Positions 16,845 to 18,215 of a DNA stretch of 21,000 bases are shown here, in pieces; positions within the stretch are counted from its first letter, which is position 1, and each line of letters begins with the position of its first letter. The notes beneath the pieces are model-generated. The model made no database searches and had not been told where the DNA came from. It saw only the letters and a program-made list of their open reading frames with translations. The position numbers were made by a program, and so were the translations under genes. Where the stretch lies: positions 1 through 21,000 of IMG/VR virus record IMGVR_UViG_3300020553_000043; one strand, written 5' to 3'. This DNA comes from a virus.

Positions 16845-16977
16845 ATTTTAAAAGATTTATTGCCTTAGTGTAATTCAGTGCATCTGTTGGATTGCTAATG
16901 TAATCATATCCAATATCAGAGATTAGGTTGATAAGCTCCATTAGTTTGGTCTTATCAATGTCAGATGTATCTATCAT
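16825..16977 (-). CDS. Unannotated 50-residue orphan ORF
   Basis: From ATG 16977 the minus strand encodes 50 codons to TAA at 16825: MIDTSDIDKTKLMELINL onward, ending KYELTRD. It fills the gap between the 96-aa and 63-aa genes and overlaps both (17 and 20 bases), as neighbouring genes in this strip do. The product is predicted to be two helices with acidic and hydrophobic faces and a YDYISNP turn. No family is recognised. The continuous open frame bridging an otherwise unexplained ~115-base gap, with overlaps of the same size as elsewhere, is the main support. Confidence 0.55.
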   Translation of the reverse strand: MIDTSDIDKTKLMELINLISDIGYDYISNPTDALNYTKAINLLKYELTRD

Positions 16978-17251
16978 TTATTATCTTATTTCTTACTAAA
17001 AAATTATGTCTCATTGAGTTACTGATTGACCTCTTAAACTTCCTGTATTCATATACCCTACCATGTGGTGTCTCATGTGTTATTTTGAACAGATTGATGT
17101 TATCACAGAACCATCTGATCTCATATCTTGTGAGCTCTTGGCATCTAATGTATCTATCTTTGAACAGTATTGAGTACAGCCGCCCATGTGTTTCATTAGT
17201 TACTGTAATGGCAAATGGTTTCTGTTTTCTATGCAGGTCAATGATTAACAC
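16961..17251 (-). CDS. Orphan protein next to the cassette; non-ATG start
   Basis: A 96-residue basic protein. The frame opens with TAA CTT AGC CAA and then GTG at 17251, followed by LIIDLHRKQKPF. No ATG is available upstream, and the outer edge of a palindrome begins only ~20 bases away, so the natural 5' end may have been changed by insertion. The protein contains TNETHGRLYSILFKDRYIRC and ends with a very basic helix (KFKRSISNSMRHNF). The pattern, with R, W and H rich strands, could bind nucleic acid, but no family is recognised. Its 3' end overlaps the 50-aa ORF by 17 bases. Confidence 0.55.
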   Translation of the reverse strand: MLIIDLHRKQKPFAITVTNETHGRLYSILFKDRYIRCQELTRYEIRWFCDNINLFKITHETPHGRVYEYRKFKRSISNSMRHNFLVRNKIINDRYI

Positions 17252-17270
17252 TTGGCTAAGTTAGTAATTA

Positions 17271-17323
17271 TTCATAACAGTTGCTAATAGCCATTGAAAC
17301 GGCTGTTAGCTTTGTGTTATAAG
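17271..17323. repeat. Imperfect palindrome A (cassette end, 3' side of the 127-aa gene)
   Basis: A 53-base nested palindrome. Inner arms GCTAATAGCC (17283-17292) and GGCTGTTAGC (17301-17310) pair at 9 of 10 positions around an 8-base loop. Outer boxes TCATAACA (17272-17279) and TGTTATAAG (17315-17323) pair except at one position. Unpaired spacers of 3 and 4 bases separate inner and outer boxes, giving an asymmetric folded strand. The outer boxes match those of palindrome B on the other side of the gene. Confidence 0.8.
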
Positions 17324-17327
17324 CAAA

Positions 17328-17711
17328 TTAAATTTTCCCACCGCACTGCAAAACGATGTCATTTAGTTTACTTGTAAATATTTCTATTGCTTTCTTCTTG
17401 CAAAAATCCAATGTGAAATCATTATATGGTATTTTCTTTTCGCTTGAATAAAACTTTTCAATTGGTTGTCTTTGGAAATAAGTGAATTTTATTTCACAAT
17501 GTTTTTGCGGTGGATGTACATACCATTTTGTTTTTGCATTATCAATCCACCAACCAACCTCAACTTTTCTATCATAGAAATATATTTCCAAAACAGGCGA
17601 CTTTGTTTTTTTATTCCATTGTGTTGGCTCAAAGTTTAGCCATAGTTCACATCGTATGTTTTCCGTTTTCCCATCGGAACTTTGTATTTGTTTTGTGGTT
17701 ATCCATTCCAT
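17328..17711 (-). CDS. Orphan cassette-borne protein
   Basis: A 127-residue soluble protein starting at ATG 17711 (MEWITTKQIQ). It is rich in K, W, Y and F, with strand-like segments (LEIYFYDRKVEVGWWID, CEIKFTYFQRQPIEKFY) and a C-terminal helix (KKKAIEIFTSKLNDIVL) ending CGGKI. The pattern suggests a small alpha/beta fold of about five strands and one helix. I do not recognise it. It has about three times the CpG density of a phage stretch counted nearby, and stands alone between the two palindromes without overlapping any neighbour, unlike the phage genes around it. This favours separate acquisition. No clear TAnnTTTG promoter lies upstream. Confidence 0.65.
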   Translation of the reverse strand: MEWITTKQIQSSDGKTENIRCELWLNFEPTQWNKKTKSPVLEIYFYDRKVEVGWWIDNAKTKWYVHPPQKHCEIKFTYFQRQPIEKFYSSEKKIPYNDFTLDFCKKKAIEIFTSKLNDIVLQCGGKI

Positions 17712-17730
17712 CGCTCAAAAATTTAATCAG

Positions 17731-17827
17731 CTTATAACAGCGTATATACAATATACGCCTACAAGCATTTATTTATAATTTGAAATTTCGTTAAGGCGTA
17801 CCTCGTATATACGCAAAACGTTATAAT
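17731..17827. repeat. Imperfect palindrome B (cassette end, 5' side of the 127-aa gene)
   Basis: A 97-base palindrome. Two 20-base inner arms, 17740-17759 and 17795-17814, pair along nearly their full length around a 35-base AT-rich loop; each arm contains the core CGTATATACG or a close variant. Outer boxes CTTATAACA (17731-17739) and CGTTATAAT (17819-17827) flank them, with zero and four unpaired bases between inner and outer boxes. The first arm also contains its own small palindrome, GCGTATAT...ATATACGC. The outer boxes match palindrome A. Confidence 0.85.
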
Positions 17828-17956
17828 AAAGGGAGCTGTTACACTCCCCTTATGGCTGCCATTGAAGGTGTTGCCATGCACCTGCATTACTTGTACGTCT
17901 ACTTTCTTGGATGGCTTGTGGCTTATCAGAGCCTTAGTATGTTCCCCCTGTGACAT
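17759..17956 (-). CDS. Doubtful 65-residue ORF across the structured region and palindrome B
   Basis: An open frame begins at ATG 17956 (MSQGEHTKALISHK). Residues 44-65 are encoded entirely by palindrome B, starting exactly at its outer edge, so the present C-terminus is not an original protein end. The first 43 residues overlap a GC-rich stretch with several hairpins, and the start codon lies at the base of one hairpin loop. No family, promoter or overlap with a neighbour supports coding. It may be a gene truncated by the cassette, but I think it is more likely to be non-coding. Confidence 0.2.
   Translation of the reverse strand: MSQGEHTKALISHKPSKKVDVQVMQVHGNTFNGSHKGSVTAPFIITFCVYTRYALTKFQIINKCL
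17828..17851 (-). terminator. Terminator-like hairpin ending the structured region
   Basis: On the minus strand AAGGGGAG and CUCCCUUU pair over eight positions (one G-U) around the loop UGUAACAG, followed by AUUAU. The U-run is broken by A residues, so strength is uncertain. It would end transcription from the HTH-like gene or the candidate RNA, and it abuts palindrome B. Confidence 0.45.
17920..17933 (-). repeat. 14-base hairpin repeat, copy 1
   Basis: GGCTCTGATAAGCC on the minus strand. The ends GGCT and AGCC can pair, leaving the loop CTGATA. It matches the second copy 63 bases away except for one loop base (A or G). Confidence 0.6.
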
Positions 17957-17982
17957 AGTGCCGATCTAAGTGACAAGGGGTT

Positions 17983-17996
17983 GGCTTACCAGAGCC
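17983..17996 (-). repeat. 14-base hairpin repeat, copy 2
   Basis: GGCTCTGGTAAGCC on the minus strand, four bases before the stop of the HTH-like gene in plus-strand order. The same GGCT/AGCC stem as copy 1, differing in one loop base. Shared loop sequence CTGRTA suggests a common binding partner for RNA or DNA. Confidence 0.6.
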
Positions 17997-17999
17997 GAG

Positions 18000-18215
18000 T
18001 TACTTCATTAGGTATTTAAACACCTTATCATAGAACTTACCTGTAACCTCCTTACCATACATGAACCTGTACATTTGAAACTTATCCACACCAACATCCT
18101 CTGCCAAATGTACTATCTTGTATCTTCTGGATAGCTTATCTTTGAGCTCACCTCTCACTGAGTCAGTGAACGTCTCATCATCTTTGATGTAGACTATCTT
18201 AGAACGGGAGGTCAT
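18000..18215 (-). CDS. Small HTH-like protein
   Basis: A 71-residue basic protein. Residues 28-60 (RRYKIVHLAEDVGVDKFQMYR onward, shown in part) read as a helix-turn-helix: a first helix, LAEDVGVDKF as the turn region, and a recognition-type helix followed by GKEVTGKFYDKVFKYL. The pattern resembles small Cro/Xre-like phage domains, but key residues are too few for certainty. ATG at 18215 overlaps the end of the DUF3127-like gene by 17 bases. It may regulate the adjoining repeats and candidate RNA or bind DNA as part of the recombination module. Confidence 0.65.
   Translation of the reverse strand: MTSRSKIVYIKDDETFTDSVRGELKDKLSRRYKIVHLAEDVGVDKFQMYRFMYGKEVTGKFYDKVFKYLMK

Follow-up and report, generated by a model that had tools for sequence, protein, structure and literature searches.

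A 127-aa gene in a phage genome fragment is very probably a mobile cassette of an integron-like, folded-strand system of Bacteroidota that is distinct from the IntI integrons. The window analyzed here, the whole 21-kb stretch of phage DNA from a virus collection, carries genes for terminase, portal, Erf-type annealing protein, exonuclease, and single-strand binding protein. An initial annotation, made from these letters alone, had proposed a distinct cassette system of Bacteroidota that loads genes into phages. The proposal is supported by an insertion with its empty site in related phages, by content at that site that differs between phages, by a copy of the gene in a bacterial MAG, and by a conserved hairpin that forms arrays with paired boxes and an adjoining recombinase. 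It is refined in two respects: the system consists of a recombinase, an attI-like site, and cassettes, and phage cassette genes are reversed relative to the hairpins.

The Window Gene Lies between Two Unlike Hairpins

The gene (127 aa, 17328..17711, minus strand; no significant family match) is flanked on the same strand by genes for proteins of 71 aa (18215..18000) and 96 aa (17251..16961). Upstream of it in the gene direction stands P2, an attC-like hairpin of 87 nt bounded by AAC and GTT (17736..17822, minus strand), and at its other end P1, a short attC-like hairpin of 43 nt (17276..17318, minus strand) with the loop CGTTTCAATG. Along the minus strand the order is TTATT-ATAAC-GTTTT-(P2 stem-loop)-T-GTTATAAGC, 26 nt, the gene (17711..17328), and then AAAATTTAATTTGCTTATAAC-ACAAA-(P1 stem-loop)-AACT-GTTATGAATAATT. 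The inner arms of P1 and P2 are unlike each other, which confirms the annotated picture of a lone gene between two palindromes with different inner arms. P2 was matched with 66.7 bits (E = 4.4e-14, over 17730-17828) by the covariance model R2, trained on 147 other hairpins without any window sequence. P1 gives a weak match by itself (18.4 bits, E = 0.019); a P1-like hairpin occupies the same phage site in contigs L158 and L160, and the P1 loop (CGTTTYAATG) is the one that short hairpins of phage arrays normally carry. Counted from AAC/GTT, the spacers measure 5 and 1 nt in P2 and 5 and 4 nt in P1; the asymmetry noted at the outset is real, and the exact lengths depend on where the stem end is counted.

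The two boxes that face the gene read, in the gene direction, ATAAGCTGATTAAATTTT between P2 and the gene and AAAATTTAATTTGCTTAT between the gene and P1. As annotated, GCTTATAACA and TGTTATAAGC form a perfect 10-bp inverted repeat. This repeat extends to 22 nt with 2 mismatches (17315-17336 versus 17718-17739, both minus strand), the gene-end box being AAAATTTAAT TT GCTTATAACA and the gene-start box TGTTATAAGC TG ATTAAATTTT, with the same TG/TT offset as in chromosomal cassettes. The description of shared outer TTATAAC/GTTATAA boxes holds broadly, except that the phage-facing box of P1 is CATAAC (minus strand GTTATGAATAA), not TTATAAC.

Related Phages Carry an Empty Site or a Different Gene

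We collected 160 related phage stretches by terminase and exonuclease searches, a search of relatives for an empty site having been named beforehand as a check of the cassette idea. In the nearest relatives, homology stops at 17267 (junction 17258..17267, minus strand ACTAACTTAG) and resumes at 17823 (junction 17823..17831, minus strand CTTTATTAT), and ~12 nt stand where the window has the whole block. The empty site, CTCCCTTTATTATGTTAATAACTTTTACTAAC or a close variant, was present at 38 loci in 35 distinct contigs (three of them counted twice), clearly diverged ones included. Hence the empty state is most likely ancestral, and the 127-aa gene with both hairpins most likely a derived insertion. 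The window's cassette was shared by only one other contig (99.96% identical, same virus). Retention of the gene and palindromes in all relatives, with the boxes occurring nowhere else, had been set down as the outcome that would tell against a cassette; what we found were empty sites in relatives and hairpin arrays elsewhere.

At the same site, L158 and L160 carry a hairpin, the box GTTAGTGGCAGTAC, a gene for a 258-aa DNA methyltransferase, the box GTATTGCCACTAAC, and the P1-like short hairpin. A place whose content varies from phage to phage in this way is a cassette site. No target duplication was found in the empty-site comparison. The insertion replaced the ~12 nt of target, so the junction is not that of a clean single crossover, a point that counts against our preferred explanation.

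Just upstream of the cassette site (window 17840-17990), the sequence is variable among relatives: it is absent in L087, and other short genes or repeats stand there elsewhere (L003, L010, L021, and L027 compared). In L010, L020, L021, and L027, this upstream stretch holds tRNA-like strings (ending TTCGAGTCC...CTGACTAC), for which neither ARAGORN nor Rfam gave a call. A second kind of gain is seen in L089 (2548-2922) and L006, where another small gene occupies the same phage site between direct repeats TTATTATGTTRA and without these hairpins. In a further relative, L005 (1267-2049), a DNA methyltransferase-like gene is inserted near the site, outside the hairpin layout.

A Bacterial Copy of the Gene Ends at the Box

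Homologs of the 127-aa protein were found neither in named phages or plasmids nor in the other 394 sampled genomes; its sole relative among the scanned species genomes lies at a contig end of the Bacteroidia MAG SJ334 (JADLER010000063.1). The match covers the last 36 aa of the protein with 97% identity. The DNA is identical at 120/125 positions, through TTTGCTTATAAC inclusive, and the identity stops exactly at the TTATAAC box, within the gene-end box of the window. Directly past TTTGCTTATAAC, SJ334 has a different hairpin, P3 (~175 nt), matched by R2 at E = 1.3e-11. Because identity ends at the box and another hairpin comes next, the boundary lies at AAC and not at the far end of the hairpin. 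The SJ334 copy has the phage-type gene orientation, like the window gene, and the contig could be contamination.

A candidate reading in which the hairpin travels with the upstream gene (in the gene direction) was dropped, since the MAG comparison and the copy boundaries given below place the exchange point at AAC. The exact TTATAAC...GTTATAA pattern, used as a search key in the SJ334 genome, gave chance numbers (12 versus 10 in a control); as the outer boxes are specific to each cassette, this pattern is the wrong key.

A copy of P2, 89% identical, precedes another gene in another Bacteroidia genome (L207, G028:C12), where about eight hairpins follow one another along a 9.4-kb contig. The genes of this contig are oriented as in phages, and it may come from a phage or plasmid and have been binned with the bacterial genome. 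When plasmid DNA was searched with P2, only chance-level matches were obtained.

The Hairpin Is a Conserved and Asymmetric Structure

Covariance model R1, built from 14 hairpins, was run against a sample of one class, Bacteroidia (395 genomes, mostly MAGs), and matched 147 of them (37%) at E <= 0.01. The 64 loci that we fetched hold 147 hairpins; because they were chosen as R1 matches, counts taken from them describe arrays, not genomes at large, and the unselected figures are the 147 of 395 genomes and the top-20 recombinase test described below. With 231 further hairpins in phages, the expectation that a covariance model would recover the structure in Bacteroidota genomes and phages was borne out.

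Eighteen of the 19 stem pairs covary, with a covariation score of 0.855 compared with 0.196 for shuffled and ~0.1 for slid pairings. An invariant G·T (145/146) stands 13 bp into the ~20-bp stem. At the 64 chromosomal loci, AAC is present in 142/146 hairpins and GTT in 145/146; the spacer after AAC is 5 nt long, usually GTTTT or GGTTT, and that before GTT 1-2 nt. The strand that carries AAC and the 5-nt spacer folds more stably than its complement in 116/146 and 182/204 hairpins (298/350 in total), by a mean of ~3 kcal/mol, and the invariant G·T of this strand is A·C on the other. Stabler strand and invariant G·T likely correspond to the features by which the bottom strand is selected in attC. 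No fixed extrahelical base of the classical attC type was found among the hairpins. Neither a class 1 integron nor 22 kb of E. coli gave a match with R2. The specificity of R1 rests on E-values, on the 248 genomes without a match, and on the box and recombinase evidence, both of which are independent of it.

Hairpins Form Arrays with Paired Boxes

Neighboring hairpins lie on the same strand in all 77 chromosomal and all 156 phage pairs. The start and end boxes of one gene agree at 6/6 positions in 53/74 chromosomal cassettes, compared with 147/5000 random pairs (3%; Fisher p = 2e-60), and in 103/156 viral cassettes, compared with 1.4% of random pairings (p = 8e-127). The model leaves the box positions unpaired, so this test is independent of it. 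The recurrent layout is GTTANNNGC-TG-NNNN ... NNNN-TT-GCNNNTAAC, to which the window gene conforms. The repeat differs in sequence for each cassette; the layout alone is shared, and there is no fixed end sequence beyond AAC/GTT and the box layout. The full RYYYAAC core fits 17/141 chromosomal and 13/201 viral sites, and the full GTTRRRY core 11/141 and 15/201. Complementary facing boxes are expected if they are the halves of one site in a circular cassette, which is how we would most naturally read them.

Gene-bearing copied segments end at AAC in 11 cases and at GTT in none; they start at AAC in 8 and at GTT in 2. These counts are small, as homologous segments between arrays mostly end inside genes rather than boxes (56/66 starts, 56/67 ends), which counts against the reading. 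Taken with the MAG comparison, the copy boundaries locate the exchange within the AAC/GTT triplet that adjoins the 5-nt spacer; on the opposite strand this triplet reads G^TT. Integrons are cut at G^TTRRRY. From the copy boundaries and this rule, the exchangeable unit of the window would be the gene plus P2, cut at G^TT at both ends (17317..17820, plus strand).

The cargo of chromosomal cassettes (alignment A4) is diverse: among it are a Tad6-like Thoeris inhibitor, MutH, GmrSD-type restriction, SUKH immunity, MerT, and a lincosamide nucleotidyltransferase-like domain. Two successive cassettes of L259 (282-1109 and 1227-2054) have the same length, reading frame, and boxes, apparently through a recent tandem duplication.

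A Xer-like Recombinase Adjoins Chromosomal Arrays

A tyrosine recombinase gene adjoins the chromosomal arrays, on the strand opposite the hairpins, in the direction of the cassette genes, and with its 3' end towards the array. When the top 20 IntI-like recombinases of the 395 genomes were taken by score alone, 6 had R1 hairpins beside them, all in this constant layout; with R2, 8 had hairpins, seven of them in the expected layout by position and strand, whereas the remaining match is weak and lies on the other side. The first cassette start box lies 77-108 nt past the recombinase stop codon in 12/17 loci; of the remainder, L303 is partly masked and four have the start box further away. A CCTATAAATGA-like string often precedes the first start box. 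By position, the region behind the recombinase stop codon is an attI-like site.

The array recombinases have their best family match in NF040815 (XerA-like; 216-232 bits, cut-off 220). Against TIGR02249 (IntI), they score 206-216 bits (cut-off 265), in two pieces around a missing part. Indeed, the gap between motifs spans 55-65 residues in array recombinases, compared with 102 in IntI1 and L309, so the IntI-specific domain is missing; the best PDB match is the XerC/XerA-like 4a8e. A single one of the 395 Bacteroidia genomes has an IntI above the NCBI cut-off (L309, G143:C40), and neither R1 nor R2 found hairpins beside this one true IntI. In a 47-row tree, IntI is placed among the array recombinases, a position made unsure by long branches. 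The same arrangement occurs on a complete plasmid of the cultured Chryseobacterium sp. SNU WT5, where a recombinase (WP_143853951.1) annotated as 'site-specific tyrosine recombinase/integron integrase' precedes at least six hairpins, which lie among genes that mostly point the same way. Recombinases ~50% identical were also seen on Klebsiella, Aeromonas, and Acinetobacter plasmids (hits H66-H84), one of them named TnpF.

Phage Arrays Carry Genes in the Reverse Orientation

Viral contigs were scanned with a pattern and the matches then checked against the model; this yielded 231 hairpins distributed over 80 stretches, some of which pack more than 10 into 8 kb. The exact-pattern count (at least 120) was set aside as evidence in favor of the model check, as many of its matches could be chance. 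The longest reading frame follows the AAC-5-nt strand in 132/141 phage cassettes, compared with 6/69 chromosomal ones (63/69 opposite; p = 2e-36), and the window gene has the phage-type orientation. Three phage contigs (L375, L376, and L394) encode a member of this recombinase family themselves, with 46-47% identity to its chromosomal relatives; the gene occupies the array end known from chromosomes, but runs in the phage's direction. N6_N4_Mtase was matched by 10 of 80 phage cassette proteins, and further methyltransferase families by several more.

In Polaribacter phage P12002L, R1 finds six hairpins around methyltransferase genes, all on the strand of the genes. Two attC sites in divergent directions were reported from this phage, one of them recombined by IntI1 via the bottom strand only (PMC9892861); the comparison of hairpins and reported sites is at the level of the whole phage.

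Discussion

We propose that the mobile unit would be one gene plus one hairpin. In a circular free form, the gene-facing boxes would meet as an outer stem round the hairpin (~9 bp of GTTANNNGC, the fixed TG/TT offset, and more pairing). A tyrosine recombinase, Xer/IntI-like but without the IntI-specific domain, would exchange strands inside the AAC/GTT triplet beside the 5-nt spacer, and cassettes would be inserted either next to the attI-like site by the recombinase gene or next to another hairpin. Phages bearing such a hairpin could thereby gain, lose, and swap cassettes, here the 127-aa gene and in sister phages the DNA methyltransferase. We infer the circular intermediate from the box pairing; neither excision nor a circular cassette was observed in the sequence data examined. 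We found no recombinase gene in the window, nor in the examined parts of its 33-kb sibling contig (3300044613_000551), and the enzyme for the window's cassette would presumably be the host's or another phage's, acting in trans. Of the folded-strand part of the initial annotation, the conserved asymmetric hairpin stands, and its structure suggests that the sites act as folded single-stranded DNA.

An ordinary integron cassette cluster (CALIN), with normal attC hairpins and a normal IntI supplied elsewhere, would share the AAC/GTT logic, the hairpin, and the adjacent gene, and IntI1 does recombine a site of P12002L, bottom strand only, in the phage where R1 finds its six hairpins (PMC9892861). 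We nevertheless consider this explanation improbable: IntI is found in 1/395 Bacteroidia genomes compared with hairpins in 147/395, the array recombinases lack the IntI insertion (55-65 versus 102 residues between motifs), the RYYYAAC and GTTRRRY cores fit only 17/141 and 11/141 sites, and R1 and R2 find nothing in a class 1 integron or beside the true IntI. Less probable still is that the gene lies within a transposon-like element bounded by 22-nt terminal inverted repeats, or between a pair of MITEs. A 22-nt, 91% inverted repeat does flank the gene, but it differs in every cassette with only the fixed layout in common; as judged for DDE transposons and MITEs, there is neither a shared terminal repeat nor a target duplication, copies end at AAC, and many different genes form one-orientation arrays with a recombinase at one end. 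A role of the hairpins at the RNA level, as terminators or processing sites in a gene-dense phage region that gained a gene by ordinary mosaicism, would fit strong stems between co-directional genes and a region variable among relatives, but is scarcely credible, as no Rfam match came near threshold, the paired boxes stand outside the hairpins, and an RNA role does not allow gene orientation to be opposite in phages and chromosomes (132/141 versus 6/69) while hairpin position is fixed relative to recombinase and boxes.

Beyond the mobile cassette of the window, a wider reading, to which we give moderate confidence, is that a second class of integron, independent of IntI, is common to Bacteroidota and their phages, and that in this class Xer/XerA-like recombinases without the IntI-specific domain capture cassettes as folded strands. 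This class would be far commoner in Bacteroidia than IntI integrons, would be turned round by phages so that cassettes follow phage transcription, and would give them a stock of short genes open to exchange, DNA methyltransferases foremost among them. If true, the IntI-specific domain would be no requirement for folded-strand cassette recombination. The system makes it directly testable whether such recombination needs this domain or a plainer Xer-like enzyme suffices. Integron finders require the domain, so the Bacteroidota system is largely invisible to them, with hairpins in 37% of the sampled Bacteroidia genomes and one true IntI in 395. The system opens a large pool of cassette genes of unknown function and gives phages a gene-by-gene means of changing anti-restriction genes. 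In the open-access literature we found no description of the wider system, which is no proof of absence.

Comparison with Known Systems

The array recombinases resemble XerA/Xer enzymes, their best family match (NF040815) bearing the name 'site-specific tyrosine recombinase/integron integrase'. Known Xer enzymes act on double-stranded dif sites; unlike them, the array recombinases sit beside hairpin arrays. The dif modules (pdif) of Acinetobacter plasmids likewise hold small genes between recombinase sites, which are 28-bp Xer sites without long stems; compared by description, the long stems would set the Bacteroidota system apart.

With integrons, the system shares the combination of one gene and one palindromic site, same-orientation arrays, a recombinase and attI-like site at one end, the AAC/GTT boundary, the strand asymmetry of the folded site, and presence in phages, where phage-borne clusters are described (PMC9892861). 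It differs in that the boxes are GTTANNNGC, not GTTRRRY, and their pairing continues past the TG/TT offset. The sites have 5-nt and 1-2-nt spacers, a ~20-bp stem, and an invariant G·T in place of the described extrahelical base. The recombinase is co-directional with the cassette genes, the attI-like site follows its stop codon, and phage genes are inverted relative to the sites. As in attC, a conserved fold goes with variable sequence and strand asymmetry; the full core boxes are absent from most sites. The window itself holds one gene, not an array.

IntegronFinder 2.0 reported one complete integron in Bacteroidetes proper (PMC9024848). The IntI-specific domain, which IntegronFinder uses, is given as a defining feature by Messier and Roy (2001), as cited in PMC9668308. 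The reversed integrase gene recalls the reverse-orientation integrons of spirochaetes (Treponema; PMC9668308; also PMC3607928), which, unlike the Bacteroidota arrays, use a true IntI with the extra domain. With its arrays of one-gene cassettes and, by position, an attI-like site, the Bacteroidota system works like an integron, yet, its recombinases lacking the IntI-specific domain, it is not a member of that group by the IntI criterion.
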